From: Caldicellulosiruptor bescii DSM 6725
Lineage (GTDB): Bacteria > Bacillota > Thermoanaerobacteria > Caldicellulosiruptorales > Caldicellulosiruptoraceae
Length of the DNA stretch: 64,000 nucleotides
Reading direction: 5' to 3'
NCBI RefSeq assembly: GCF_000022325.1
Contig: NC_012034.1
Coordinates: 1,630,501 to 1,694,500 of the forward strand
Shown here: in pieces, positions 28,177 through 44,598 of the stretch
Layout of the letters: each line of letters begins with the position of its first letter
How positions within the stretch are numbered: the stretch's first letter is position 1
Notes under the pieces: generated by a model
The model's database searches: none
Told to the model about the DNA's origin: nothing
Seen by the model: only the letters and a program-made list of their open reading frames with translations
Translations under genes and position numbers: made by a program

Positions 28177-29508
28177 GTGAGAATAATTGTAACTGACTTT
28201 GGAGCAAAAGGAGATGGAGTGAGTTTTTGTACAGAGGTAATACAAAAGGCTATTGACACCTGTTTTGAAAATGGTGGTGGAGTTGTAGTTATACCTGCTG
28301 GAATTTATTTGAGTCGCCCTATAAGGTTAAAATCTAATGTAACCCTATATTTGGAAGAAGGTGCTGTAATCAAAGCAACCAACAATATTGAAGATTACTA
28401 CCAAATTGGTTATTACCACAACGAATGGGGAGAGGTTACTTCATTTTTATATGCGATGAACGAAAAGAACATAGCAGTTGATGGAAAAGGTACAATTGAC
28501 CTTTCCGGAAGCAGTTTTATGGATTTTTCAAGAGCATTTAATCAGTTCGAAGAGCTATCTCAACTTGACAAAGACCAGTTTGAAGAGACAGAATGTAAGC
28601 CCATTTACCGACCAAATCAACCCATATTCTTCTATAACTGTGAAAATATTAGTCTGAGCGGTATCTCAATTATTGACTCACCTTGCTGGACAGTTTGCAT
28701 CCACTCATCAAAATACATCAAGGTGCACAACATAAGGATTATGAACAATCTCAGAGTTCCAAACAGCGACGGTATACATCTTTGCTCATGCGAAAATGTA
28801 ATAATATCAGATAGCTTCTTTACTTGCGGTGATGACTGTGTTGCTATATCTGGCATTACAAACTGGGACAAACCATGTGAAAATATAATTGTGTCAAACT
28901 GTATTATGCAAACACGCTCAGCAGCGTTGCGGATGGGACACCTCGATAGCAAAGTAAAGAATGTGGTTGCTTCTAATCTTATCATCCTTAATTCAAACAG
29001 AGGAATTGCAATATTCGCAAACGGGAAAAGCGGGTATGTCAAATCAGTTACAATCTCAAATGTCATTATGACAACAAAAATATTTGCTGGTACATGGTGG
29101 GGAAAAGGTGAACCAATTGTAATTGCCTCTCCTGAAGAAGGTAATTTTATTGAAGATATCTCTATTTCCAATATAAAAGCTTATTCGGAAAATGGGATTT
29201 TAATCTATGGCAAAGATAATAATATCCGCAATATTTCACTTAAAAGTATTGATATATACCTTAGATTTGGCAAAAACAGACCACTTTTTGGCAAAAGAAT
29301 TGACATTCTCCCAAGCAAATGTCCACCTTTCCCTGATTACATGAATAAAATTCCATGGATTTTTGCAAAAGATGTTTTGAATCTTAAACTTCAAGATATA
29401 AACTATGGATACAATTTACAAAACTTAAAAACTGATTTTGACATAGAAGGAATTTTTCAAAATGTAAATAACTCTTTCTTTTCTGGTATTAGAAAAGTAG
29501 CTACTTAA
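28177..29508 (+). CDS. Glycoside hydrolase family 28 (polygalacturonase-like)
   Basis: The 443-residue parallel beta-helix protein has the GH28 pattern: FGAKGDGV near the N-terminus, NSDGIHL (N196-D198), CGDDCVAIS (D219, D220) and LRMGHLDS (His near 255). The three catalytic Asp are therefore present. GHG is changed to MGH and the RxK motif is not canonical, which suggests a substrate other than plain polygalacturonate. There is no signal peptide, so it likely acts inside the cell on pectin-derived oligosaccharides. GTG start with AGGAGG seven bases upstream. Confidence 0.88.
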   Translation: MRIIVTDFGAKGDGVSFCTEVIQKAIDTCFENGGGVVVIPAGIYLSRPIRLKSNVTLYLEEGAVIKATNNIEDYYQIGYYHNEWGEVTSFLYAMNEKNIAVDGKGTIDLSGSSFMDFSRAFNQFEELSQLDKDQFEETECKPIYRPNQPIFFYNCENISLSGISIIDSPCWTVCIHSSKYIKVHNIRIMNNLRVPNSDGIHLCSCENVIISDSFFTCGDDCVAISGITNWDKPCENIIVSNCIMQTRSAALRMGHLDSKVKNVVASNLIILNSNRGIAIFANGKSGYVKSVTISNVIMTTKIFAGTWWGKGEPIVIASPEEGNFIEDISISNIKAYSENGILIYGKDNNIRNISLKSIDIYLRFGKNRPLFGKRIDILPSKCPPFPDYMNKIPWIFAKDVLNLKLQDINYGYNLQNLKTDFDIEGIFQNVNNSFFSGIRKVAT

Positions 29509-29542
29509 AGTCAAAAGTTTAAAATCCCAGTTATAACAAAAT

Positions 29543-29614
29543 TTCAAGGCTGTCCGTTCACTCCAGAACATATGAAATGACCTCTTTCAAATGGCAGCCT
29601 TGAACTTTTTTTTT
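29543..29614 (+). terminator. Terminator after the GH28 gene
   Basis: TTCAAGGCTG (29543-29552) pairs with CAGCCTTGAA (29595-29604) and a T9 run follows. The loop is long (42 nt), as with the terminator after argF. Confidence 0.65.
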
Positions 29615-29955
29615 CATCTTCTAAATAAGTCGAATTTATCAAGTGTTATTACATAAGGGTGGTTATAAACCTTTCTCAGGTGTTCAAACGAATTTATATT
29701 GCCATCAGTCGTAAATCGACCCCACCAAGGCATAAACCAAAGCCAATAAGTTTTTGTATTTTGCAAAACATCTGGGTCAGGGATTGGTCCATTTTCTGTC
29801 AAAGCTATAGGTTTTTTAGCTTCTGTCAGCTCATAGACATAATCATACCAAAATGAAAGAGGACCATAGTTTTGGGTCGGGGCATAAAAGTCAACCCCTA
29901 CAACATCATAGTAGTCTTTTTCTATTCTCCAATCAGGATGTGGTGCATTCCAAAC
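29614..29955 (-). pseudogene. C-terminal fragment of a GH26-type mannanase
   Basis: About 113 residues are open from the break at 29955 to the stop at 29614. They include YYDVVGVDFYAPTQNYGP, KKPIALTENGPIPDPDV, and WFMPWWGRF with HLRKVYNHPYVITLDKF at the end, typical of the last part of GH26 beta-mannanases; the Glu in ALTENG is the presumed nucleophile region. The N-terminal two thirds is gone, and upstream sequence reads into a transposase remnant, so the gene is dead. Confidence 0.75.
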
Positions 29956-30354
29956 TTAAAACCTTCTGTTGCACTATTTGTATACGGAACATCAAAAGAA
30001 TTTACTATCTCTGAAAACCAGTTCGTTCCTAAAAACCTTTATACATCTGCAAAATTCAGAAAGGCCACTTCTCTCTGCTGCCTCTATCCACTTTTTTAAT
30101 TCAACTCTCGCTTCTGCTGAATTACTGCTTTCCAAAACTTTCCTGAATTCTTCCTTGAGTCTATGCGCTTTCCTCAAATCCCGACTATACCAAAACATTA
30201 CTTCTAACTCTTCTCTCTGCTCTGCTGTAAGTTCTTCATAAGACTTTAACAACAATTTCCTGCTCCTCTTGAAATATTTTCTCAAATTATCTTCTAATTC
30301 TTTCTGCAATCTTTTCCTTACTCCTTCTGTCGCCCAATAAACATACCTTGTGGA
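29956..30354 (-). mobile_element. ISL3-type transposase remnant
   Basis: A minus-strand frame reads RYVYWATEGVRKRLQKEL, then LTAEQREELEVMFWYSRDL and FCRCIKVFRN, matching the middle of ISL3-family transposases. After a frameshift it continues as NWFSEIVNSFDVPYTNSATE, the region close to the catalytic end. The N-terminal part and both ends are missing. The lower end fuses to the GH26 fragment and the upper end abuts an IS256-like element. Confidence 0.7.
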
Positions 30355-31675
30355 AGTTAAAATAAAATTGTGTCCACTGTATAATTAGTATTGAAATAAT
30401 CACCAAAGGGGGTTCACGATTATGGAGAAAAATGAAATTTTTGAGACCGCTAAAAATATGGCTATCGAACAAGTGCTAAATATGTATTGCTTCCTGTGAT
30501 GATCCTACTCGCCCAGCTCTAAAACAGCTAAAAGTAAAACTTGCTCGATTGCTTTATGTTATCGGAAAGAAAAGTAGCCCTTGCTAAAAATGACAATGAC
30601 AAAGGCAATGGTTTTTATTGAAGTAAAACTTTCAACACCTGCTATGTAGTTTGAAATTTCTGTCCCTCGCACACGCCCTTAGAATTTCCGACCTTCTATC
30701 CTCTTCTTTCCGCTACAAAAGAGTTGATAGCTTATCTACTTCCCTTCTTATGTCGCAAGTACATCAATGGTTATTCTTGAGCGTTCCCTTGTCCAGACTT
30801 TGAAAGCTTTGAATCTTCCATATTCCGAAAATGAAATACTAAAAATCAAAGAAGACCTTAAAAATGAGCTTCAATTATTCAAACAAAGAGAATTGCTAAC
30901 ATCTGCTTTTGCTCTCATCATCGACGGTTATTCAGAAGTGAAGTTAAGGACAATTCTAAAGTTAAACAAGCTACTTGCAATGCCAGCCTCCGTATTGACT
31001 TAGAAGGTAAAAAAGATATCTTTGGTATTCTGCCCTTTCTTCGGCAAAGAAAATAAGGCTGATTGGATGAAAGTTTTTGACGATTTAATTACAAGAGGTC
31101 TTAAAGAAGTTTTAATTGTCATAAGTGATGACTTTCCTGGTATTATAGATGTTGCCAAACTTGCTTATCCTCTTGCTGACCTTGAGCTTGCTTTTGTCCA
31201 CCTCCAATGAAATAGCAGAAAACATATGACAAAGGATAAAGCTTTCAGCTTTTAACAAGAGTTTAGACAGAGTTAGAATTTCTTCCTTCGATTTTGACGA
31301 AGCTGTACTGAAATTTAAAGAACTTTGCGATGGATACCTTTCAAAATATCCTCAATTTTATTGCTGCAATATCAGAAAAAGCAGAGTTTTATTCTGTTCA
31401 TATGAAATACCCTGAGGAATTAAGGAAGCAGATTCTTTGCTACAGACGCCGCCTTGCGTGTAAACAGCATGATTGAAAAGTAAAGAAGTAAATTCAGGTG
31501 GATACTTTTAAGGCTGTCAAAGTCTTAGAAATTAATATTTACTTAACAAGAAGAGAACTTACGCCGTACAAAATGGAAAAATGGAGCTTTTCAGTATTAG
31601 AAAATGCATCAATAACATAACATAACTTTACAACTTACGTTATAAATTGGTAACACAAAATTCTTGACAAGTCTC
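30355..31675 (+). mobile_element. Degenerate IS256/mutator-like element, copy 1
   Basis: This roughly 1.32-kb unit is repeated almost base for base at 55912-57228. Frames on the plus strand read MEKNEIFETAKNMAIEQ near the left end and FGKENKADWMKVFDDLI then VISDDFPGI further on, the latter typical of IS256-family transposases. Stops and frameshifts break the gene many times, so no functional transposase is encoded. The ends (AAAATTGTGTCCA on the left, and the complement of TTGTGTTACCA on the right) look like diverged inverted repeats. No target duplication was found. Confidence 0.75.
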
Positions 31676-31955
31676 GCTGCACAATCTGTTATATCATGCT
31701 GCTTTACACAATAGTATCTTTTCCTCATCTCTTCATCACACTTGATTTTTGATATATTTGCTTCTTTATTTTCTTATTTAGGCTGTTTTGTACTCAAGCT
31801 ATTTTTTCTGTAAACATCTTCTTGGAATTTCTATGCAAATTTTATCTTATTCATTTTCACTCTGTCAATCCCGTTTTTTTTAGCCCATTTTCAACTAAAT
31901 TTTGAGCTCAGAATATACTTTTCTTTAAATAGCTTAAATTTTCTTAAATTTTCTT
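31675..31955. repeat. Direct repeat copy A (C39 peptidase 5' stump plus upstream region)
   Basis: About 280 bp match 43999-44304 at most positions in the same orientation. On the minus strand it contains an ATG (31728) followed by RKRYYCVKQHDITDCAA, the beginning of a C39 peptidase domain. The frame runs into the end of the IS256-like element. A T8 run here corresponds to a T29 run in copy B. Confidence 0.8.
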
Positions 31956-32594
31956 GAGTTTTTAAAATGATAAGTTTGAAAATAGGAAAAATATATCGTT
32001 TGTTTAATAAAAGAAATAACCACATAGAGTAAATGTAGTAACAAAAGAAAAAGCCCTCTGTGTTACAATTTTGATTTTAGAGAAAACCTGCAACAAAACG
32101 TAAGAGAAGATAAAGAATAGAGAATAGAATAACCAAGGAAATGTAATCTATTTCAAATTTTCACCATGTGCTTAAAGACAAAAAGGATTTACTACCTTTA
32201 TTTTCCCAAAGTACTGACCAGAATTTAAATCTTCACTCCACACTATTGAACATCCTAAGTTCTTGTAAATCTTTCCCTTTAACCACCCCAACAATTTATT
32301 TTTTAGCCAAAAAACTGAAGGGTGAGCATTCAGAAAACTCACCCTCACTCCTGACAGATAAATATTATTACATTTTTCTGGTTTAAAATATTTGTACAAA
32401 AGCCCTCTCCTCGCATCAATTTTTATTTCCTTTTCCGTTAATTTTATTAAACTATTTTTCCCCTACTCTCTGCCCCATTTCAATAACTGCCGCTTTTTGT
32501 GTTCAGTTCATAATAACTAATAAATTCAACTTTTTAATAAATATTTATCTCCAATCTTTCACCTTAGCTTTAAGTTAATAGAAATCTGCTTTTT
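31956..32594. other. AT-rich non-coding stretch
   Basis: I see no convincing gene. The only structured element is the candidate terminator at 32314-32344. Short open frames here lack ribosome-binding sites and recognisable motifs. Confidence 0.5.
32314..32344 (-). terminator. Candidate terminator of the SLH protein/RiPP transcript
   Basis: On the minus strand GGGTGAG (32344-32338) and CTCACCC (32326-32320) enclose an 11-nt loop, and TTCAGTTTTTT follows. It lies 250 bp beyond the SLH gene stop. Confidence 0.55.
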
Positions 32595-35500
32595 TTATGG
32601 TTTCACCATACTCACAACCTTGCCATCGTACCCTAAAATGAGGTACACTCTCTGACCAACTTTGAAGGTGTCAGAAAGAAGCACAGATGGGTCAAAATCT
32701 TCGCTCACCTCATATGTTCTGTCCACAAGCTTTCCTGTTGTCAGGTCTACTGCACTTACAACAATTGACTTTGGTGTGAACCTTGTTGGCTGGTAGCTTT
32801 TGATGTAACATTCAACCCTGTCATCTACAACAAGTATGAACTTATTACCACCCCAGATGTCTGACACAGCATAGACAACATCGTTTTTCTGAATATAGCT
32901 GTAATCCACAACATCCCCATCTTTTATAACTTTGCTACTACCACTTATATCCAAATCACCTGCTTTTAAGGTCAGATATGTCTGCTCATTTGCAAGGTAT
33001 GGTTTGCTGTATACCGGGTCAAATATTACACAGTAGTCATACCCGCTCTTTTGTGTTGATATTCCAAACACAAGCGATGTTGCCCTTTGCATCTTCTGAA
33101 GCACCTGTGAGTAGTCAATCTTTGTGCCGCTGTAGTAGTAGATTATGTTTTGTGGCAAGGTCATCTCAACCTGTGTTCCGCCTTTGTCAACTGTTACTTT
33201 GCTTCCAAGAGCATACACAACTGTCATGCTATCTGTTGAGTTGAATTTTTTGTAGACAAGAGTTATTTGATTATCTGAATCAACATAAAGCCCATATTTT
33301 GCGCCAAGCTCCAAGTTTATATTCTGGTTTGACGGCAGGGTCAAAATGCCTTTGTCTGTTAGAACTTCATTGTCTGCAAGACCTTTTGTTACCTTGCTTG
33401 TTCCCATTACAATAACTTCCATGTATGTCCCATACTCATCATAATATGGGTCCTGGATGATTGCATACTCATACGAATTTCCTGCCTGGTTGTAGCCAAA
33501 ATAGATTTTCTGACCTGTTTTGAGAATACTCTTTAGCTGGTCATAGCTGAGCTTATTTCCATTGTAATAGTACGTAGGTTTTTGAGGAAGAGGCAGCGCA
33601 TTCTCAGTGCTGCTTTTTTTGAGCTTCACGGATGTAGCGCTCACAACTGCTGTAATCTCTGCTGACTCCACGTTGTTGAGCTTTTTCACAACCTTGGTGA
33701 TTGTATCATTTTTGATGTACACACCATACTTTGCACCAACAGAAAGCTTTCCTGCAGATCTTCCCACAACATATATGCCCTTGTCTGTTAGAACCTCGTT
33801 TGTTGCAAGCTTGCTTGACGAAATGCTATCTGCCATCACTATGACCTCTGTGTATGTGCCATACTCAAAAGAGTATGGGTCCTGAATTACAACATATTCG
33901 TATGTCTTGCCGTCCTTTGCAAAACCAAAATAGATTTTCTGACCCACTTTTAGCACATTCTTGAGCTCAAGGTAGTTTGTTTTTGCACCATTGTAATAAT
34001 AAACCGGCTTTTGAGGTAGAATAATGTTCTCCTGCCCCTGAGTACCTTTTAGCTTGACGTTAGTATCACCTACAACATCTGTTACCTCATATTGCTGAGT
34101 ATTATTCAACTTCCTTACAACAAGCGTTATCTTATCGTCTTTAACATAAAGTCCGTACTTTGCACCTATTTCAAGTTTTGTCTCGGCAGATGGAAGGTAA
34201 AAAATACCTTTGTCAGTCACAACCTGGTTGTTCTCAAGGCTTGAGTTTAAAAGTGCATCCTGCAAAACTATTGCCTCAATATAGTTTCCATACTGTGTAC
34301 CATATGGGTCTTGTATAACATATGCCATAACCTTGCCTGTGTCAGGGTCTTTTGATACATAGAGTATCTGGTCTTCTTTTAAAATGTTCGGTAAATTTTC
34401 ATAGCTCTGTTTTGTTCCCTGATAGTAATATAAAGGTTTGCTTGTCAGCTGAATCCTTTGTGTTTTGCCGTTTTGAGCAGCATCAAGTGTGTAATCATCT
34501 ATATTTGTAATTGTAAACTTTTCTGATACCCACACTTTTTGCAAAGCTGCAGTGATTGTATCATCTTTTATATACACTCCATACTTTGCTCCAATTTCAA
34601 GGTTTTCAGGTTTTATTGAAGATGCAACAAAGTATATTCCCTTGTCTGTCTGAACCTGGTTTGCATCCAGTGCTGATGATGTTTTTGGAGTTGCCAAAAT
34701 CAAAACCTCATCGTAGTTTCCATAAATCTCTTGTGCATATATGTCGGAAATTACAACAAAGTCCATTTTGCTCCTATCTTCAGAATATATAAAGCTTATT
34801 TTCTGGTTCGGTTTTAGCACATTTTCTACTGCATCATAGCTCTGCTTTGAGCCGTTGTAATAGTATGTTGCCGAAGATGGCAAAGTTATTGATTTTGTCT
34901 TTCCACTTTCCTTGTAATATACAGTCCTGCTGCTTACCTTTGTGCTGACAATCTGGAAAGAATCAGCTTCAGTGCCAAACACTTTCGTGATTTTATTGGT
35001 ATCAACCTGAAGCATGTACTTTTTCCCAACTTCAAGTTGCGTCTTTGTTGCATTCACAAGCACTCTGCTGTCTGTCAAAACCTCATTTGGAAGAAGCTTT
35101 GATGATGTCTTGCCAGTATCAAGCACAACGTATGATTTGTAAAGCCCAACATATTCAGAAAATTTTGTATTTGTATTTTTTACATTTGTTTCAAGCAGCC
35201 TATATAGCATAATGGCCAAATCATATTTTGTAACTTTTTTCTTAGCCGACACATTTAAGCCTTTCAACAGTCCAAGTTCAGAAGCCTTTCTGATATAGTT
35301 ATAAGGCCAGATACCCTCTATATCTGAATCAGTATAATTTAGCATTTTTACCATTGCAGTTACTGCATGAGAAAATGTAATTTCTTCAAATGGTCTAAAT
35401 TTCCCATCTATTGAAATATTCAAATACTTATTTTTAACGGCCCAATTCACATAACCACAAAGTTCTGTATTAGATTTTACATCAATACAGTATGAAAATG

Positions 35501-35762
35501 GTTGTTGAACTAAAGTTTTTTCATCAACATTTGAAATTTTTGCAATAGCCCTAACAAACTCCTGACGAGTCACGTAACTGTTTGGCTTGAGATAATCTTT
35601 TGATGATACAACACCTATCTTAGACAACTTTTCCACTGCAAGCTTGTACATATCAATCGATAAATATTCTTTTGTTTGTGCACTCACAGTTTTCATTATT
35701 AAAAGTTGAGTAATAACACAGATAACCAAAAATAAAAATCTGTGTCTATTTTTATATTTCAT
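32595..35762 (-). CDS. SLH-domain surface protein with about five internal repeats
   Basis: This 1055-residue exported protein has a signal peptide (about residues 8-28; FLFLVICVITQLLIM), an SLH region (about 35-195) containing YVTRQEFVRAIAK and PYNYIRKASELGLLKG, and then a long array of units of about 130 residues. Each unit carries NEVLTDKGIY-, LEIGAKYGLYVKDD-, LPQKPVYYYNGAK- and YVVIQDPYSFEYGTY-like blocks; the YYYxG block occurs five times. SLH domains attach proteins to cell-wall polymers. The gene is 40 bp downstream of the LolD-like ATPase and last in the peptide operon. No enzymatic domain is recognised. Confidence 0.85.
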   Translation of the reverse strand: MKYKNRHRFLFLVICVITQLLIMKTVSAQTKEYLSIDMYKLAVEKLSKIGVVSSKDYLKPNSYVTRQEFVRAIAKISNVDEKTLVQQPFSYCIDVKSNTELCGYVNWAVKNKYLNISIDGKFRPFEEITFSHAVTAMVKMLNYTDSDIEGIWPYNYIRKASELGLLKGLNVSAKKKVTKYDLAIMLYRLLETNVKNTNTKFSEYVGLYKSYVVLDTGKTSSKLLPNEVLTDSRVLVNATKTQLEVGKKYMLQVDTNKITKVFGTEADSFQIVSTKVSSRTVYYKESGKTKSITLPSSATYYYNGSKQSYDAVENVLKPNQKISFIYSEDRSKMDFVVISDIYAQEIYGNYDEVLILATPKTSSALDANQVQTDKGIYFVASSIKPENLEIGAKYGVYIKDDTITAALQKVWVSEKFTITNIDDYTLDAAQNGKTQRIQLTSKPLYYYQGTKQSYENLPNILKEDQILYVSKDPDTGKVMAYVIQDPYGTQYGNYIEAIVLQDALLNSSLENNQVVTDKGIFYLPSAETKLEIGAKYGLYVKDDKITLVVRKLNNTQQYEVTDVVGDTNVKLKGTQGQENIILPQKPVYYYNGAKTNYLELKNVLKVGQKIYFGFAKDGKTYEYVVIQDPYSFEYGTYTEVIVMADSISSSKLATNEVLTDKGIYVVGRSAGKLSVGAKYGVYIKNDTITKVVKKLNNVESAEITAVVSATSVKLKKSSTENALPLPQKPTYYYNGNKLSYDQLKSILKTGQKIYFGYNQAGNSYEYAIIQDPYYDEYGTYMEVIVMGTSKVTKGLADNEVLTDKGILTLPSNQNINLELGAKYGLYVDSDNQITLVYKKFNSTDSMTVVYALGSKVTVDKGGTQVEMTLPQNIIYYYSGTKIDYSQVLQKMQRATSLVFGISTQKSGYDYCVIFDPVYSKPYLANEQTYLTLKAGDLDISGSSKVIKDGDVVDYSYIQKNDVVYAVSDIWGGNKFILVVDDRVECYIKSYQPTRFTPKSIVVSAVDLTTGKLVDRTYEVSEDFDPSVLLSDTFKVGQRVYLILGYDGKVVSMVKP

Positions 35763-35802: not shown

Positions 35803-36480
35803 TTAAGCAATTTTTCTATCTTCTATTATTTTCCCATCATGAATTCTTACAATCCTTTTTGCCTGAGAGGCAATGTGATTGTCATGTGTAATTAACACCA
35901 CAGTACATCCTTGGTTATGAAGTTGTTTGAAAATTTGCATAATTTCTTCGCCAGATTTTGAATCTAAGTTTCCCGTCGGTTCATCAGCTAAAATTATTGA
36001 AGGATTTGTCACAATTGCTCTTGCAATGGCAACCCTCTGTTGCTGCCCACCAGATAGCTGTCGAGGTCTGTGATTTATCCTGTCAGAAAGCCCTACGCGT
36101 TCAAGTGCTTCTTTTGCAATCTTGTGTCTTTTTGATGCCGACATCCCTTTGTATATTAAAGGCAGTTCAACATTCTCAAGAGCAGTTAACTGTGGAATTA
36201 AATTGAACTGCTGAAATACAAAGCCTATCTTGCTGTTTCGAATCTCTGCAAGCTGATTGTCTGAAAGGCAACTAACTTCTTTTCCATCTAAGATGTATTT
36301 TCCTGATGTTGGTACGTCAAGGCATCCCATTATATTCATCAATGTTGACTTTCCTGAACCAGAAGGTCCAATAATCGCAACAAACTCATGTGCATCAATT
36401 TTAAGATTTACTCCATTTAAAGCATAAACATCTATTTCGCCCACTTTGTATATTTTAAAGATATCATTAAGTTCTATCAT
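35803..36480 (-). CDS. ABC transporter ATPase, MacB/LolD type
   Basis: This 225-residue nucleotide-binding protein has Walker [10 protein letters not shown], signature [14 protein letters not shown], Walker [14 protein letters not shown] and H-loop THDN. The subfamily pairs with FtsX-like permeases, and such a permease is encoded 28 bp upstream, followed by a HlyD-type adaptor. The set resembles YknYZX of Bacillus subtilis, which protects against the SDP toxin. I prefer the ATG at 36480 (MIELNDIF); earlier ATG and GTG codons at 36489 and 36492 crowd the AAAAGG ribosome-binding site. Confidence 0.92.
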
Positions 36481-36508
36481 ATATATCATCACCTTTTGTC
36501 AAAAGTTA

Positions 36509-37717
36509 CTATTCATATCGTAATGCAATACTTGGTTCAAGGCGTGCTGCCCTTTCGGCTGGAGCCCAGCCAGAAAATACACCAACAAAGCCCGATACAC
36601 CCAGAGCAAGTAAGATCCAAAATGTTGAAATTGTGGGTTGAACATCGTTCATTAGATTAGGAATAACAGCATATACAACTACTATTCCTAACACTATGCC
36701 CATTATACCACCTAAAATAGAAATTATGGAAGATTCAACTAAAAATTGAAAACGAATATCTCTTATTTTAGCTCCAACAGCTTTTCGTATACCTATCTCT
36801 TTTGTCCTCTCAGTAACAGATACTAAGATGATATTTGTAATTCCTATTCCACTGACAATAAGAGATACCGTAGCAACTCCTCCAAGTAGCGCACTGAGTA
36901 AGTACGAAACTGAAATAACACCTTGCAAAATTTCTCCTCCGTCTATAAAAGAGTAATCATCTTTTTCAAATCCTTTTTGAGTCAAAAATTCTTCTATAAT
37001 TTTTTGAACCTCCTTATTTTTTTCTGAACTTACACATTTTATAAAAAATTGTTGTGATGATATCTCTGAACTAAATAAACTTTCGCCCACGTTGAAAGGT
37101 ACTAAAATACTAATATCAGAAGCACTTCCAATAGATATATTTGCCAATCTCTGTTTCTTTTTTACTACGCCTACAACTTCAAATTCATTTCCTTTAATCC
37201 ATAACTTCTTACCTAAAACCTGCTGCCCCTTCCCAAAAAGTTTATCCTTTTGATCATCAAACACTACTGCAACTTTGTTATTTCTATCTTCGTCTAAATA
37301 ACTTAAAAACCTTCCCTCAACAAGTTGAAGACTTTCTGTGATATAATAATTAGGTTTTACCAACAGAATTTCGCATCTTTTTTTGTTGTTATCCGAACTC
37401 AAGACCTCAAACGAGAGACTTTTCTTAGGTGTAATTGTCAATACTAAATCTTTGTGTTTCCACAAATACTCTGACAATTCATAATAATCGTTTTGATGTT
37501 CTGGCAGATAAGAGAGAAAAAGAACCAGACTATCTACACCGCTCTCTTTAACTTGTTTTGCAAAACTACTGCTAACTGTTTGGACAAGCCCAACAGCTGC
37601 AATTATAGAACTTGTCCCTATAACCACTCCAAGTACACTTAGAAAGGTTCGAACCCTGTTTTCATAAAGTGATTTTATTGCCATCTTTAAAATTTCATAA
37701 ACTTTAATAAACTGCAT
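36509..37717 (-). CDS. MacB-like ABC transporter permease (FtsX family)
   Basis: The 402-residue protein has one N-terminal membrane segment (VRTFLSVLGVVIGTSSII at about 21-38), a large extracytoplasmic MacB_PCD-like domain (about 45-275) and three C-terminal segments with VTERTKEIGIRKAVGAK, the FtsX/MacB coupling motif. This mechanotransmission type does not pump across the membrane by itself but acts on periplasmic or extracellular substrates. It works with the ATPase and adaptor next to it. A role in exporting or resisting the peptide encoded upstream is inference. Confidence 0.9.
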   Translation of the reverse strand: MQFIKVYEILKMAIKSLYENRVRTFLSVLGVVIGTSSIIAAVGLVQTVSSSFAKQVKESGVDSLVLFLSYLPEHQNDYYELSEYLWKHKDLVLTITPKKSLSFEVLSSDNNKKRCEILLVKPNYYITESLQLVEGRFLSYLDEDRNNKVAVVFDDQKDKLFGKGQQVLGKKLWIKGNEFEVVGVVKKKQRLANISIGSASDISILVPFNVGESLFSSEISSQQFFIKCVSSEKNKEVQKIIEEFLTQKGFEKDDYSFIDGGEILQGVISVSYLLSALLGGVATVSLIVSGIGITNIILVSVTERTKEIGIRKAVGAKIRDIRFQFLVESSIISILGGIMGIVLGIVVVYAVIPNLMNDVQPTISTFWILLALGVSGFVGVFSGWAPAERAARLEPSIALRYE

Positions 37718-37736: not shown

Positions 37737-39365
37737 TTAAGGTGTAGTTTTGTAGGTCTGAGGAAGTACTACTTCCTCACCTTCTTTTAAACCTTCTAAA
37801 ATTTCTACGTGATGCTCATCACTAATACCAAGTTTAACTTCTCTTTTTTCACAGCCTGCATAGTAACTTTCTTTTGTGCCAAGTTCATCAGAGATTTTAT
37901 CGTCTTCTTTAATTTTTTTCAAGCTCTCATTATTAAATTTTTTTACATATACAAAGTACTTATCTCCTTCTTTCCTTACAGCTTCAATGGGTACACAAAT
38001 TGCATTCTTTTTTCTTATAACTTCTATTTCTGCTGTGGCATGTGTCCCTCTCTTGATATTTTCATTGTAAAATCTTATTTTTATGTTAAACCATGAAACA
38101 TTCTGAGATAACTCTTCATCTAATGGTCTTGGATTAATTGATTCCACAATCCCGTCTATCTCACTTTCAGGTATATAGCTACTATGAGGTGCAAAATTTA
38201 TCTTCACTCTATCACCTTTTTTTACTTTGTAAACATCATACTCCGATATCTTAGATTCAAATATTAAGTCATTTGTGCTCCATACAGAACAAATACTATC
38301 ACCCATATTAATTAGCTTACCTTCAGAAATATTGAGATTGCTAATCACTCCATTTATGGGTGACATTACCTTACAATTATTTATCTCTTTTTTCAAGGTC
38401 TCTATTGCCTCTTTAGTTTCGTCAATCTGATCTTTTAGTCCATCTATCTGCTCTTTAATATCTTGGTCAAAGAATTCAATTAAAATATCCCCTTTTTTTA
38501 TCCTGTCATATTGTTTTACAAATATTTTCTTTATCCTTCCTTCAACCTCGGATTTTATAACTATCTCGTCCATTTTTAAAATACCTTCATTAACACTTCT
38601 TATTTCTTGATAAGGATTTTTTGATGTTATAACACAAAAGGCCTTTGCTCCAGATGGCAAACTTCTTCCTTCATTGTCAACACAAATTTTAACATCAAAT
38701 ACCGATTGCCCATTGTCGTTTACGTAAAATAAAGAACTCTTTGCATCAACAAATCCTTCTGTCTCTATATCATATTCAGTAAGAACAACTTTTAATCTTT
38801 GGCCAACACGAATACTATTAAATAGCCACGAAGGAAACGCTACTGTTAAAAATAAAGATTTATTATTTACAATTTTGAAAAGATTAGCTCCCAAAGAAAC
38901 ACTCTCTCCCTCGGTCACATATATTTCTTGCACCTGTCCATCAAAAGTAGAGCTAAATTTGTATTTTTCTAATTTATCTTGAAACTTTTTAATTTCATTT
39001 GAGAGTTTTTCCAATTCCTTTTCTTTCTTTTTGAGTTCAGATACCTTATTAGAAGCATCTATATAAGCTAACAGCTTTCCCTTTTTGACGTAATCTCCTT
39101 CACGAACATACACCTTACGAACCATCCCAGAAACTAAACTATAAATTGCTTTTTCCTCTGCTCTGACAATACCTCTTAGTACAATCTTCTCTTTAATTGG
39201 CATTCTAATAACTTTTACTGTCTTTTGATTCGAAACTGTACTTTTTTCAGCAAATTTACTAAGATATCTAGTAAATAAATACACACTGCTCAGAATGAGA
39301 ATTATAATTACAAAATATCCAACTATGAAAAAACTCCTTTTGTTTTTCTTCACTTTTTTATTCAC
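37737..39365 (-). CDS. HlyD/MacA-type adaptor with duplicated lipoyl-like domains
   Basis: This 542-residue membrane-fusion protein has one N-terminal membrane anchor (about residues 13-32). Instead of one pair it shows two sets of lipoyl-like half motifs: SGMVRKVYVREGDYVKKGKL and FDGQVQEIYVTEGESVSLG in the first half, then VEGRIKKIFVKQYDRIKKGD and INGVISNLNISEGKLINMG in the second, each pair separated by a short coiled coil. The C-terminal barrel follows. It is long compared with YknX or MacA (about 370-380). In a Gram-positive cell such adaptors extend the exporter through the wall. Confidence 0.88.
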   Translation of the reverse strand: MNKKVKKNKRSFFIVGYFVIIILILSSVYLFTRYLSKFAEKSTVSNQKTVKVIRMPIKEKIVLRGIVRAEEKAIYSLVSGMVRKVYVREGDYVKKGKLLAYIDASNKVSELKKKEKELEKLSNEIKKFQDKLEKYKFSSTFDGQVQEIYVTEGESVSLGANLFKIVNNKSLFLTVAFPSWLFNSIRVGQRLKVVLTEYDIETEGFVDAKSSLFYVNDNGQSVFDVKICVDNEGRSLPSGAKAFCVITSKNPYQEIRSVNEGILKMDEIVIKSEVEGRIKKIFVKQYDRIKKGDILIEFFDQDIKEQIDGLKDQIDETKEAIETLKKEINNCKVMSPINGVISNLNISEGKLINMGDSICSVWSTNDLIFESKISEYDVYKVKKGDRVKINFAPHSSYIPESEIDGIVESINPRPLDEELSQNVSWFNIKIRFYNENIKRGTHATAEIEVIRKKNAICVPIEAVRKEGDKYFVYVKKFNNESLKKIKEDDKISDELGTKESYYAGCEKREVKLGISDEHHVEILEGLKEGEEVVLPQTYKTTP

Positions 39366-39387: not shown

Positions 39388-39852
39388 TTATTTGCTCTTT
39401 TTATCTCTCCTTATTAACTTTCCTACATTATATCCAATAAATGTCATCAAGGCAATTATCAATGATAATATCATAAGTGTGGATATAATACTACCAACAT
39501 CACCATTATCCAGTGAAATTTCTATTCCTTTCTTTTTAGCTTCTAAAAGTAACCTTTCTTTGACATCATCTGTTAATATAAGAGGTTTATAAAAGTAGCT
39601 AATAATATCCATTATAAGTTCTGTGGTAAGACTGATAAAGATATTAAACGCCAAAATATTGGTAAATTTACCTCTACTGAATATACTATTTAGTAAACTC
39701 ATAAATGCTAAAATTCCAAATGCGGAAAGTTCAGCAATAAGAATTCCTCCAACCGATATTGATTTTTTATTAAATACACACCACGTTAGAATAATAACTT
39801 GATATAGAATTACTAACCCAGCAAAGATGTAGATTATTATTTTTCTCATCAC
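39388..39852 (-). CDS. Small membrane protein of the peptide operon, possible immunity or transport accessory
   Basis: The 154-residue protein has four probable membrane segments (about residues 5-25, 33-55, 65-88 and 124-145), with a charged stretch between the last two (DDVKERLLLEAKKKG). No family signature is recognised. It stands between the exporter ABC gene and the adaptor gene, 22 bp from the latter. By position it could be an immunity protein or play the part of YknW in the Bacillus YknWXYZ complex. I cannot decide from sequence alone. Confidence 0.6.
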   Translation of the reverse strand: MMRKIIIYIFAGLVILYQVIILTWCVFNKKSISVGGILIAELSAFGILAFMSLLNSIFSRGKFTNILAFNIFISLTTELIMDIISYFYKPLILTDDVKERLLLEAKKKGIEISLDNGDVGSIISTLMILSLIIALMTFIGYNVGKLIRRDKKSK

Positions 39853-39889: not shown

Positions 39890-41581
39890 TTAAAACGTAA
39901 AATTCATTTCAAACAGTCTGCCATTGTTTAAAGTAAAAATCTTATCTGCATATTCTAATATCTTTTTTCTATGACTTACAATAATTATAATTCTATTCTC
40001 TTTGAGCTCTTTCAATATCTCACATAAAATTCTCTCATTTTCCTCATCAAGCGAAGAAGTTGGTTCATCAAAAAGCAAAATTTTTGCCTCTTTTAATAAC
40101 TCCCTTGCAAGGAGTATTCTTTGCTTCTCACCTCCAGAAAAATTAATTTTTTCATCATACATAGTGTCATAACCATAAGGAAGCTTAATAATTTTTTTAT
40201 TTATTTTTAAAATTTCACAAATATTTTCTATATCATTGTCCACTTTATTCAGATTTGATAATTTTATATTCTCTCTTATAGATAAGTTGTAAATCAATTC
40301 TGCTTCTTGAGGTATATAACTTACATATCTCCAAAATTCTCTAAAATCAATTTTGGAAATATTCTTCCCGCAAATTGTAATACTTCCTCTCTCAGGTTTA
40401 TACAAGCCACACAGTAACTTCAGAAAAGTTGATTTGCCGCACCCAGACTCACCGATTATTCCAATTATTGAATTTGGTTCTATTATCAAGTTTATTCCTT
40501 GAAGTACATAAGAGTCAGAATTTTCATATTTAAACCACAAATCCTCTATAACAATTTTAAAATCCAATTCTCCAAAATGCAACATTTCAGAAGTATTTTC
40601 TATTTTAATATTGTTGGTATTATTTAATAAAAATTCATTTAGCCTTTCAATTAAAGGAAATAATCTTCTAAATTCAATTCCACTATCAAACAGCTCACTA
40701 CTTGCAGCAATAAGATTCTGAAAATACATACTTAAAGCTACGATCATTCCCACAGTTGAATGCCCATTTATAATTACTATTGAGCCCCCAACATATATAA
40801 TGATAATAGCCACTATAGCAAACAGAGCAGTATAGGTAGATAACAACATTATTTTAGCAAAAATCTGAACTGATAAATCTCTCAATTTACTGTTTATTTC
40901 ATTAAATTTGTTAAATATAAAATTCTGGGCATTGTTTAAATTAATCGAAACTATATTTCTAATTACACTTGGTACAAAAGTATTCATTCTATCTATCAAA
41001 AGCTGAGACTCTTTTTGCAATATTCCTATTTGATGTCCTTTCTTAAGTATGAAAACAGCAAATAAAAACAAAATCATCGCTAAAACAACGGTCAAAAATG
41101 GTGATAACCAAAGCATTATAGAAAAGGAAAATATAATTATAATTATATTTTTCGTAAAATTGTTGATTAAATCTTGAATAAATTCTCCAATCTCTTCTGT
41201 CTCATTCAAAATACGTGTTAATATAGTTCCCGGAGGACTTTTTTCGAAAACAGTGATAGGAGAATAAAGAACTTTTTTAAAAAATTCATTTCTTAACTCC
41301 TGCACTATTCTTTCCTTAAATCGTATTATCATCAAGGAACTTAAGTATGAGGTCACTGGTTGCAAAAGCCACACCAAAGAAAACATGATTAACTGTTTCA
41401 TTAATTTTTGTAAAGATATTCTTGTTATCAAATCTTCAACTAATTGTTTTGAAATAATCGGAGCAACATTTATTAATATTGTATAAATTTGTAGAATGAG
41501 AAATCCAATTAAACCTATCCTAACATGCGGTTTAACAAAAGGCATTAATGATTTTATTGACTTTAACTTCTCCATTCCCAA
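39890..41581 (-). CDS. ABC exporter with fused membrane and ATPase domains
   Basis: This 563-residue half-transporter has six membrane helices (about residues 15-310) followed by the ATPase domain, with GESGCGKST (Walker A), FSGGEKQRILLARELL (signature) and ILLFDEPTSSLDEENE (Walker B). It is of the type that exports peptides or lipids. It carries no N-terminal C39 peptidase, unlike many bacteriocin exporters, so a leader peptide would need another protease; a CPBP protease is encoded immediately upstream. It most likely exports the modified peptide of this operon, which is inference from context. Confidence 0.9.
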   Translation of the reverse strand: MGMEKLKSIKSLMPFVKPHVRIGLIGFLILQIYTILINVAPIISKQLVEDLITRISLQKLMKQLIMFSLVWLLQPVTSYLSSLMIIRFKERIVQELRNEFFKKVLYSPITVFEKSPPGTILTRILNETEEIGEFIQDLINNFTKNIIIIIFSFSIMLWLSPFLTVVLAMILFLFAVFILKKGHQIGILQKESQLLIDRMNTFVPSVIRNIVSINLNNAQNFIFNKFNEINSKLRDLSVQIFAKIMLLSTYTALFAIVAIIIIYVGGSIVIINGHSTVGMIVALSMYFQNLIAASSELFDSGIEFRRLFPLIERLNEFLLNNTNNIKIENTSEMLHFGELDFKIVIEDLWFKYENSDSYVLQGINLIIEPNSIIGIIGESGCGKSTFLKLLCGLYKPERGSITICGKNISKIDFREFWRYVSYIPQEAELIYNLSIRENIKLSNLNKVDNDIENICEILKINKKIIKLPYGYDTMYDEKINFSGGEKQRILLARELLKEAKILLFDEPTSSLDEENERILCEILKELKENRIIIIVSHRKKILEYADKIFTLNNGRLFEMNFTF

Positions 41582-41622: not shown

Positions 41623-42333
41623 TTATAATCCTAGTAATTCTACTCCCACATTATAAGTCCAATGCAAAATAATACATGAATGAATGCTTTTTGTTTTATA
41701 TGATATAAAAGACAAAATCAAACCAATGGGAAAACGTACTAAAGTATTAATCGTCATATCTCCACCACAGTGGAGAATAAATCCAAATACTAACCCATCA
41801 AGGACAATGCTTGTAAAAGGATTAAACACACCTAACAATTCATTCAATATAATACCCCTTGTTAACAATTCTTCGGTTAAACTTACAAAAAAATTGTGTG
41901 TAATTACTTCTCTAAATGTATTCATGTCTGTGTTTTTACTCGCTAAGAAAAACACAAAGCTGGCCACTAATAGAGATACAATCAATGTAAAATAGTACCA
42001 TTTATTATTTTTAATTGTTAAATTCAGTTCATTTATCTTTTTCTTTTTTATCAACACCATAAATAATAAGGGAAATAATCCAAAGCAAATTGTGAATGGT
42101 ATTGAGTATTGCAATAATAGCTCCTTTAAAGAAGAATATTCTACATAAGACACATAAGATTTGTCCATTATTGCGCAATAAAGCAAAAGCCAAGCCAAAT
42201 ACACTATAGTAGGTACAAAAATTAGTGCGCTTATTTCTAAATATAAATATAAGATTTTTTCCTTTTTATTTTTAAGATTACAAACCATGTTCGTTATTAT
42301 ATTTTTTACAATATTATTTTTAACTTTTTTCAT
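41623..42333 (-). CDS. CPBP-family intramembrane metalloprotease
   Basis: This 236-residue membrane protein belongs to the CPBP/Abi (Rce1-like) group. Motif 1 is EELLTRGIILNEL (EExxxR), motif 2 is FGFILHCGGD (FxxxH), and motif 3 is the HWTYNVGVELL region near the C-terminus, with His and Asn. At least six hydrophobic helices are visible. Such proteases occur in bacteriocin operons (SkkI/Abi), giving maturation or self-immunity. It abuts the radical SAM gene with no gap, so translation is probably coupled. Confidence 0.88.
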   Translation of the reverse strand: MKKVKNNIVKNIITNMVCNLKNKKEKILYLYLEISALIFVPTIVYLAWLLLYCAIMDKSYVSYVEYSSLKELLLQYSIPFTICFGLFPLLFMVLIKKKKINELNLTIKNNKWYYFTLIVSLLVASFVFFLASKNTDMNTFREVITHNFFVSLTEELLTRGIILNELLGVFNPFTSIVLDGLVFGFILHCGGDMTINTLVRFPIGLILSFISYKTKSIHSCIILHWTYNVGVELLGL

Positions 42334-43623
42334 TTACTCCTCTCTTTCCTTTCGATTATATTCTCTTATCAAATTAATGATTGTTTCATAAAAATTATAA
42401 TAAAGAGGGCAGTATGGGTCTTTCTTTTTCAGAGTAGCGTTTAAATAATAAGCGTTTGCTCTACATGCACCACCACACAAATACTTGAATTTACAGATAT
42501 TACATCCATCAATCATATCAACGCTTATATTTTTCCAAATTAGTCTTTTTGAACTGCAAAGAATTTCACCCACTGTCATATCTTTTATATTTCCTAATTT
42601 AAATTCCTCAACGTGAAGCATGTGACACGGATAAACATCCCCATTAGCTGCTATACTTAGCATTTTCCTTCCAGCTTCACAACTTAATCGAGTTTCAAAG
42701 CTAAAGTTTTTTATATTTGTATTATCTATGTTTTCATTCCATTTTATACTTGATAGAATGTCTTCCCACTTTATACTTGACAGAATATCTTCACTAAACA
42801 TAAAATCCTTACATTCTTCTCTATTTTGATTATTGCAAGTCAAAATACTATAGCTTAAGGGTATACCCATTTCTTCACTTAGTTTTTGATATTTGTCCAT
42901 TAAATTTACATTCTTTCTATGTAAAGTTGCTATCATGCTTACATTAATACCTGCTTCCTTTAACAAAGCTATGTTGTTCATAACAATTTTATGTATCCCA
43001 GTGGGTCTTATAAAAGTTATTCCTTCCTCATACCCATCAATCGAGACAGCAACATCATCTACATATTCTCGGATAGTATGTAACAAATTATGCGGTAAAT
43101 TTGTCCCATTGGTTATTAATACTATATAATTTATATCCAGTATTTCTTTCAAATATTTAATAAACTCATCCAAATCATTCCTTAATGTTGGCTCGCCTCC
43201 CGAAATAATAATTTTATCCAAACCGTATGTCTTTAGTTGTTTTACAGCTTCTAAAAAATATTCCATTGATAAGTCTTGACTTTCATCATTTCTATTTTGA
43301 TCATATGAATAACAGCCCTTACAGTATAAATTGCATTTGTTAGTATAATGTAAATATATACTTTCTATTTCTATGTCATTCATACAAATTGACTCCTTGA
43401 TGTCACAAATTATATCACATTCTTTCAAAATACTAAGCCACTCTTTCTTTTTGTCATCTAATTCATCTTCATTATTTAGCTTACCAGCCAAAATGCTCTT
43501 AACAAAACTTAATTCTTTTTCATTTAAAGCAATTATAGAACCAGTTCTATAGTTTCCAATAAAAGGTATTTCGTCTATAGCGAACATAATAACATCTTTA
43601 TTGATTTTGTAAGATTTAATCAT
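42334..43623 (-). CDS. Radical SAM/SPASM peptide maturase
   Basis: The 429-residue enzyme has the radical SAM motif CNLYCKGC (C97, C101, C104), SGGEPTLRND, and a C-terminal SPASM domain with CEAGRKMLSIAANGDVYPCH, LGNIKDM, and the Cys group CNICKFKYLCGGAC then CPLY, which hold two extra Fe-S clusters. The N-terminal 95 or so residues could carry the peptide-recognition element. I place the start at ATG 43623, with AGGAGG eight bases upstream; the longer frame to 43701 runs through the attenuator hairpin. EDILSSIKW occurs twice in tandem (27-bp duplication). It probably modifies the small peptide encoded just upstream. Confidence 0.92.
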   Translation of the reverse strand: MIKSYKINKDVIMFAIDEIPFIGNYRTGSIIALNEKELSFVKSILAGKLNNEDELDDKKKEWLSILKECDIICDIKESICMNDIEIESIYLHYTNKCNLYCKGCYSYDQNRNDESQDLSMEYFLEAVKQLKTYGLDKIIISGGEPTLRNDLDEFIKYLKEILDINYIVLITNGTNLPHNLLHTIREYVDDVAVSIDGYEEGITFIRPTGIHKIVMNNIALLKEAGINVSMIATLHRKNVNLMDKYQKLSEEMGIPLSYSILTCNNQNREECKDFMFSEDILSSIKWEDILSSIKWNENIDNTNIKNFSFETRLSCEAGRKMLSIAANGDVYPCHMLHVEEFKLGNIKDMTVGEILCSSKRLIWKNISVDMIDGCNICKFKYLCGGACRANAYYLNATLKKKDPYCPLYYNFYETIINLIREYNRKEREE

Positions 43624-43655
43624 ATAGATATCCTCCTCTTTCAAAAGTCTTAAAT

Positions 43656-43683
43656 AAGCCCCTCTCACTGTAGAGAGGGGCTT
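43656..43683 (-). terminator. Attenuator-like hairpin between peptide gene and radical SAM gene
   Basis: AAGCCCCTCTC (43656-43666) and GAGAGGGGCTT (43673-43683) form a perfect 11-bp stem with a 6-nt loop; the downstream tract on the minus strand is only moderately T-rich. A partial terminator here would give much more peptide mRNA than enzyme mRNA, as is common in RiPP operons. Confidence 0.8.
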
Positions 43684-43704
43684 GTCCTTGGAAAGTATCA
43701 ATTC

Positions 43705-43839
43705 TTAGATCTTAATAGTAGTAGTAATGGTCTTGTTGCCTCTTTTTTCAGTCTCTGTCCTTGTATATCCTATGTCGAATTTAAAAATCTTAATATTAAT
43801 ACTTGAACAACCCACCTTTGTGTTCTTTTTTGCCAACAT
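43705..43839 (-). CDS. Putative RiPP precursor peptide (44 residues)
   Basis: The peptide starts MLAKKNTKVGCSSINIKIF and ends GNKTITTTIKI. It has one Cys (C11), many Thr, Lys and Ile, and alternating polar/hydrophobic residues. Support is strong for so short a gene: AAAGGAGGTGA sits an optimal distance before the ATG, a promoter with a palindrome is in front, a hairpin is behind, and a radical SAM/SPASM gene follows on the same strand. It is not a Cys-rich ranthipeptide or SCIFF precursor, having only one Cys. I do not recognise its class. The likely core is the Thr/Ile-rich C-terminus, but the cleavage site cannot be read. Confidence 0.75.
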   Translation of the reverse strand: MLAKKNTKVGCSSINIKIFKFDIGYTRTETEKRGNKTITTTIKI

Positions 43840-43879
43840 CTTTCTTCACCTCCTTTCTACTCGAATCTATATAGTCTTT

Positions 43880-43908
43880 TGCATAAACGCTCATATGAGC
43901 GTTATCAA
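43880..43908 (-). promoter_or_regulatory. Predicted promoter with palindromic operator before the precursor gene
   Basis: On the minus strand TTGATA (43903-43908) and TATGCA (43880-43885) are 17 bp apart. A perfect 18-bp palindrome, AACGCTCATATGAGCGTT (43886-43903), fills that spacer. A dyad between -35 and -10 is a classic place for a regulator. The -10 is weak, consistent with regulated transcription. No regulator gene is adjacent. Confidence 0.6.
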
Positions 43909-43998
43909 ACTTTTTAAAACTTTCAAAAAGATCTCACTTCCTCCTCATACATAGTGTAAAATTTATCTATATTGTAAGCAAATTGTTGCCAAACTTGC

Positions 43999-44304
<306 letters not shown>

Positions 44305-44598
44305 TTATAACAAAGGTAAATTTGCAAATTGTGGCTATTAAATATAGTTAAAATTCATTTTAAGGTATACAGTAGAAAAACCTATTTTTAATTACTTCTT
44401 CTCTACCATTTTTTCTTTCGCCTATATATATAGCAAATAGATTTTAAATCTAAATAAAAATCATGTAAAATATTTGTTAAATTTAAATTTGGAACAGGAT
44501 GTTAAAATAAAATTGTTCTGGTAAAAGGTTTGACAAAAAGGACTTGACATAACAAAAAGGGCTGAGCTTTTTTCTCTTGCAAGCCAGCCCTTTTGACA
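44305..44598. other. AT-rich intergenic stretch with a possible solo IS end
   Basis: No gene is seen. GTTAAAATAAAATTGT at 44501-44516 is identical to the left end of the two IS256-like copies, but nothing else of the element follows. The terminator of the neighbouring operon lies at 44555-44594. Confidence 0.4.
44555..44594 (-). terminator. Terminator of the FtsX-like permease operon
   Basis: AAAAGGGCTG and CAGCCCTTTT (44585-44594 and 44555-44564, given for the minus strand) form a 10-bp stem ending in a T-rich tract just behind the permease stop codon. Confidence 0.8.

Follow-up and report, generated by a model that had tools for sequence, protein, structure and literature searches.

The window analysed here, the whole 64,000-nucleotide stretch of Caldicellulosiruptor bescii DSM 6725 DNA, carries on its minus strand a short gene, pepA, followed on the same strand by a hairpin and then by genes for a radical SAM/SPASM enzyme, a CPBP protease, an ABC exporter, a 154-aa membrane protein, an HlyD-type adaptor, a MacB-type permease and an ATPase. 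The features are listed from upstream to downstream, each with its evidence.

43963..44052, minus strand: 29-codon remnant of a C39-peptidase ABC transporter gene, covering its start, MRKRYYCVKQHDITDCAAASLATICLQYR* (multi-copy upstream module)
43847..43856, minus strand: ribosome-binding site of pepA, AAAGGAGGTG (read from sequence)
43705..43839, minus strand: pepA, precursor peptide gene (open reading frame with ATG start; homologues keep the frame)
43656..43683, minus strand: hairpin separating pepA from the radical SAM gene, with a stem of 11 bp (fold z=-2.7 over 43625-43710)
42334..43623, minus strand: radical SAM/SPASM peptide maturase of 429 aa, counted from the ATG at 43623 (Pfam Radical_SAM and SPASM, motifs, homologues)
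41623..42333, minus strand: CPBP (Rce1-like) intramembrane protease (Pfam PF02517, E=2.5e-14)
39890..41581, minus strand: ABC exporter of MsbA/HlyB type, permease and ATPase in one chain (family searches)
39388..39852, minus strand: 154-aa membrane protein, candidate immunity protein (homologues)
37737..39365, minus strand: HlyD/RND-type adaptor protein (family searches, homologues)
36509..37717, minus strand: MacB-type permease (family searches; homologues 54-57% identical)
35803..36492, minus strand: MacB/LolD-type ATPase (family search, homologues)

The pepA product is a 44-aa peptide, MLAKKNTKVGCSSINIKIFKFDIGYTRTETEKRGNKTITTTIKI, with a single Cys at position 11, and its ATG lies seven bases downstream of a near-ideal ribosome-binding site. 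It is laid out as a Lys-rich leader of ~10 residues ending in VG (MLAKKNTKVG), followed by a core that begins with Cys11 and reads CSSIN-IKIF-KFDIG-YTRTETEKRGNKTITTTIKI. A preliminary description had proposed that this frame encodes a radical SAM peptide precursor with one Cys, in a gene below the usual annotation length; homologues paired with homologous radical SAM genes bear this out, the one Cys is indeed residue 11, and the length of the gene puts it below what routine annotation would pick up. The product had no family match in Pfam or NCBIfam, and a scan of six family peptides against NCBIfam models gave 0 matches. A chance open reading frame was ruled out because homologues keep the frame intact, and pepA is therefore a real gene. 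A profile made from ten family peptides recovered pepA in its own genome at E=2e-13, pepA itself being one of the ten profile rows. We also rejected a lipoprotein (VGC resembles the end of a lipobox, but no hydrophobic stretch precedes the Cys, and Lys occupies position -3) and C39-type cleavage (the peptide has no GG, GA or GS site, and the neighbouring C39 gene survives only as the 29-codon remnant).

The enzyme gene downstream of the hairpin encodes a protein with the motif CNLYCKGC at residue 97 and a complete 7-Cys SPASM motif (C315-X12-G-X4-C333 ... C374-X2-C-X5-C-X3-C387 ... C405), and its homologues are 43-58% identical. Its best NCBIfam score was 114 bits against a cut-off of 650, and it fell far under the cut-off of every named family, so homology leaves its chemistry unfixed. 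Ahead of the radical SAM core lie ~90 residues, which a low-confidence AlphaFold2 model (pLDDT 50) folds as strands and then two helices; Pfam returned no PqqD match or RRE domain. The CPBP protease keeps its EExxxR, FxxxH and HxxxN motifs intact in alignment, and no C39 peptidase domain was found in the ABC exporter. The 154-aa membrane protein matched nothing in Pfam or NCBIfam and is conserved in each chromosomal cluster, also in non-producers. The hairpin itself is likely a partial terminator or attenuator; hairpins also follow the last precursor in two of the relatives described below (G006, z=-4.1; G020, z=-5.5) and the hairpin was lost in a third (G011). An S-layer-homology (SLH-domain) protein (window 32595-35762) adjoins the MacB and ATPase genes, as it does in G003, G006, G007 and G008.

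Between pepA and the flanking ABC permease gene, the C39 transporter remnant and its upstream region reach to about 44349 (window 43962-44349). Many copies of the same ~350-bp module occur across several members of the genus, and at two loci (L077 and L078) it precedes intact 734-aa C39 transporters, followed in L077 by an HlyD gene and small GG-type peptides. Because such copies precede intact transporters elsewhere, the arrangement suggests that pepA sits behind a borrowed, copied bacteriocin-transporter promoter. A second, diverged transporter-start remnant lies at window 31651-31728, in the gap from 29508 to 32595. Nearer to pepA, a ~100-bp repeat (window 43871-43972) that recurs dozens of times in the genus contains the palindrome AACGCTCATATGAGCGTT at 43886-43903; it belongs to no Rfam family, and nothing in the upstream region scored above Rfam's own cut-offs. 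A run of 27 T on the plus strand (window 44200-44226), also upstream of pepA, is ~12 bases shorter in G011.

Relatives, losses and selection

We found the closest relative of pepA in a second species of the genus (G011, locus L028), where a precursor of the same type, 86-88% identical and free of stops and frameshifts, is accompanied by three paralogues. The maturase gene of this species is interrupted by two insertion sequence copies, which lie adjacent to each other and encode identical 317-aa transposases (L028 7465-9573). A third species (G006, L029) has three short precursors and a hairpin, with maturase, CPBP, ABC exporter, membrane protein, HlyD, MacB and ATPase genes following as in the window. 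Paralogous frames in G006 and G011 share the leader and Cys context and stand ahead of homologous radical SAM genes; such a precursor was not found in the other nine of the 11 congeners searched. The DNA upstream of pepA and of the G011 precursor is nearly identical, this similarity stops within the hairpin, and the two maturase lineages are 55-58% identical, which together points to recombination at the hairpin, with the precursor common to the window and G011 and the enzyme lineage not.

Outside the genus, two genomes from another family of the class (G020 and G024, Thermoanaerobacter-like) carry a precursor (MLFVFAGGNKKAGCISVGVVFCVNIGYNYNNWSI in G020), a membrane protein, a 43-44% identical maturase and a CPBP gene. 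A Streptococcus salivarius plasmid (NZ_CP018188; L037 4583-8822) encodes a precursor, MLKFSTKKTKKAGCVSVGALVSVSIGHYIKEVKSTV, at a place where no feature is annotated, with a CPBP gene, a membrane protein and a maturase whose gene is broken by an lnu(C)/ISSag10 insertion. Precursor and homologous enzyme were thereby seen side by side in five genomes and one plasmid, the enzyme gene being interrupted in G011 and the plasmid. A maturase profile run against 398 genomes of the phylum, with up to four candidates per genome scored, recovered the genus itself only, and the ten-peptide profile gave the genus plus weak matches in the same sample. These weak matches, in other classes (G268, G449, G188, G239, G381 and G051), were rejected as members at E 0.0015 or worse; the best of them, G268, was read directly and contained stops and lacked the motif. 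Scanned IMG/VR viral contigs held no relatives, a search of genome contigs gave one weak, unrelated match, and tblastn of phage records gave weak partial matches only. The precursor family is rare and so far unnamed; its members come from two thermophile groups and from a single plasmid of an oral Streptococcus.

Losses were seen as well. A profile of the membrane protein detected it in 10/37 genomes of the class, and three species of the genus (G003, G007 and G008) have the membrane protein, HlyD, MacB and ATPase genes but lack precursor, maturase and CPBP. The HlyD gene of G003 is apparently frameshifted, and in G008 the module lies beside the same flanking genes as in the window and G011. 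This is the pattern that an immunity remnant would leave in non-producers. Precursor frame and enzyme were lost together in G015: this genome no longer has the maturase, its cluster contains an insertion sequence, a frameshift disrupts the CPBP gene, and a one-base shift in a T run throws the precursor (MLFAFAKGNKKTGCVSIGAVF...) out of frame. A broken precursor beside an intact radical SAM gene, which the preliminary description had named as the finding that would speak against it, was not seen; G015, the sole frameshifted relative, has no radical SAM gene.

We compared pepA with the pepA-type precursor of G011 (G011 A), its only close homologue. The two genes differ at 12 nucleotides, all of them within codons 12-44 and none in codons 1-11 (core 12/99 sites, leader 0/33), while the 500 bases upstream differ at 10/488 (core versus upstream, p=4e-5). 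Eight codons are changed, six of them non-synonymously, with a dN of 0.098 and a dS of 0.094 (dN/dS ~1). The neighbouring ATPase gene gave dN 0.020 and dS 0.145. Between G006 and G011, paralogue D (dN 0.022, dS 0.287) shows purifying selection and paralogue B gave dN 0.140 and dS 0.276, and these paralogue values indicate that the precursor family is under protein-level selection. The fixed leader and fast-changing core of the window type are as expected of either a competitive peptide or relaxed selection.

Alternatively, pepA would be a decaying, pseudogene-like copy free of selection, and the dN/dS of ~1 was obtained against a species whose radical SAM gene carries two insertion sequences. 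We regard such decay as improbable, since the frame, leader and ribosome-binding site are fully kept, the window operon is intact, and twelve nucleotide changes have produced no stop and left the leader untouched. A signalling peptide, sensed or exported by the MacB-type system, has a somewhat better but still small chance of being the product: the peptides are very short, and several streptococcal radical SAM peptides are linked to quorum sensing (PMC13361665). Against signalling, precursor-less species retain the membrane protein/MacB module in the manner of orphan immunity, and the core evolves faster than its flanks, both of which fit competition better without proving it.

Conserved residues and the proposed product

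Over the ten family peptides, four columns are invariant (M1, K8, C11 and G24 in window numbering), the first Cys thus being kept in 10/10. In seven of the ten, CxxPhiG (Cys, two residues, Ile or Val, Gly; C..[IV]G) occurs twice, a pattern that shuffled cores yield with a probability of 0.0002 to 0.003 per peptide. Single-Cys peptides retain a Cys-less version of the second motif (KFDIG in the window, ALDIG in G011 A, SVSIG in S. salivarius), and the first motif of the window peptide, CSSIN (C11-SSI-N15), is not an exact CxxPhiG.

The preliminary description had instead placed the conserved, modified part of the peptide in its alternating C-terminus, GNKTITTTIKI, and in an internal FKF, and had named residue-level conservation of the C-terminal motif (low dN/dS) as the point to check. 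The alternating tail is literally present in the window peptide, but it is not conserved across the family: the GNKTITTTI stretch is confined to the A type and absent from six Caldicellulosiruptor-like paralogues, and in G011, where dN/dS was about 1, the last Ile has become Ala and FKF has become FAL. A hydrophobic-basic-hydrophobic end (IKI, IRI, IKL, VRV, MRL) recurs in paralogues but is missing from the Thermoanaerobacter-like and Streptococcus members. The same description reasoned that with one Cys, epimerisation or C-C/C-O crosslinks were likelier than a thioether array. Such a maturase would act on the alternating Thr/Ile/Lys stretch and need Cys11 for recognition or structure only; alternating hydrophobic and polar residues do exist in the peptide, the window lineage has no second Cys, and for streptococcal peptides the formation of Lys-Trp and ether links by SPASM enzymes is documented (PMC13361665). 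We nonetheless hold this to be unlikely, because the stretch is missing in other members and altered in the closest one, whereas the Cys is invariant. Given the invariance of C11, the complete 7-Cys SPASM and the existence of sactipeptides with just one thioether, such as the sporulation killing factor (PMC8172795), one bridge formed from the Cys makes a good hypothesis.

Our best guess, because C11 is invariant, is one local thioether at this residue. The N-terminal domain of the maturase would recognise the short Lys-rich leader, and the enzyme would join the Cys11 sulfur to the backbone of Ile14 or Asn15 (a CxxPhi-G/N motif), giving one small local ring; most relatives would form two thioether rings in tandem. 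A ring could alternatively be of the nested, hairpin type known from subtilosin and thurincin, with Cys11 linked to a distant residue in the C-terminal half. Classic sactipeptide acceptors are C-terminal, and a Cys near the core N-terminus with a Thr-rich C-terminus matches a hairpin layout. In the paralogues, however, a spacing of 9-10 residues separates two Cys that each have a PhiG of their own, the C-terminal halves are unrelated and differ in length, and we give a nested ring only a small likelihood.

After formation of the local ring, the CPBP protease may cut off the leader around Gly10/Cys11 and the ABC exporter would secrete the product, probably a bacteriocin directed against close relatives, with the ~150-aa membrane protein and the HlyD/MacB/ATPase system putatively shielding the producer. 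For this whole reading, that pepA encodes the precursor of a secreted bacteriocin modified by the adjacent maturase through a C11 thioether, cut by CPBP and exported, we estimate a probability of roughly 60%. More tentatively, and at less than even odds, the family may be a new RiPP family defined by tandem CxxPhiG motifs, one radical SAM/SPASM enzyme, small in-line thioether rings (to Gly/Asn at +4 or Ile/Val at +3), a CPBP leader peptidase and immunity through a ~150-aa membrane protein and MacB, of which the window lineage would be a reduced form with one ring lost.

What is surprising about the family is its use of CxxPhiG motifs in tandem, an arrangement that is reduced in the window lineage. 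From two CxxPhiG motifs down to one Cys, its members form a small natural series suited to tests of ring chemistry and of each Cys, and proteins from the thermophiles may be stable. Species with the membrane protein and MacB genes alone offer a ready immunity test. Genes this short are easily overlooked, as the unannotated S. salivarius homologue illustrates.

Comparison with known systems

A short precursor beside a SPASM-type enzyme, the general arrangement of radical SAM/SPASM RiPPs, was found in the window and again in relatives, and a core Cys donor conserved family-wide, as in sactipeptides, is provided by C11 (10/10). Ranthipeptides (PapB, CX3D; SCIFF/CteB) likewise combine a SPASM maturase with repeated C-X3-residue motifs, but have an Asp/Glu acceptor at +4 or six Cys, neither of which applies to CSSIN with its one Cys; the maturase scored 99 and 63 bits against the PapB and SCIFF models, below their cut-offs of 340 and 425. 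Sactipeptide clusters resembling that of thuricin CD have been predicted for two species from the bacterial groups around the window, Caldicellulosiruptor kristjanssonii (Calkr_0220-0226) and also Thermoanaerobacter mathranii (PMC3132745, PMC4289311). The former is described with CxxxCxxxC-like precursor motifs, GG leaders and two radical SAM enzymes, whereas the window has one Cys and one enzyme, and we ruled it out as the same locus on the published motifs.

The sporulation killing factor system (SkfA/SkfB/SkfC/SkfEF) also has genes for a precursor, a radical SAM enzyme, a putative protease and a transporter, and its product carries exactly one thioether (PMC8172795), as proposed here. SkfB, however, has a Twitch domain and not a full SPASM (PMC6231123), unlike the complete 7-Cys SPASM of our maturase, to which it aligns at only 45 bits. 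The factor further carries a disulfide and a head-to-tail ring, and the window peptide has no further Cys for a disulfide.

Streptosactin (GggA/GggB), a type II sactipeptide with tandem unnested 4-residue rings (PMC8172795; PMC13361665), pairs one radical SAM/SPASM enzyme with a short precursor and a protease gene, as here, and its small Cys-centred motifs (Cys25-Ser28, Cys31-Gly34) resemble the tandem motifs of this family. The StsB profile (NF045574) was among the best matches and spans the maturase N-terminus, core and SPASM, nearly the whole protein. Scores of 102-131 bits (window 104, L036 131) stand far under its cut-off of 625, so we do not claim membership of the streptosactin family and take the resemblance as a possible mode of action. 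Streptosactin differs in that its acceptor lies three residues on from each Cys, where CxxPhiG has Gly at +4, and in its two Cys against one in the window peptide; an exporter and MacB module are present here, and no Rgg/SHP regulator of the kind found with streptosactin was recognised at the locus. Judged by analogy, streptosactin is the closest in layout, and we conclude that pepA and its maturase represent a new precursor/maturase family within a general kind of system that is already known.
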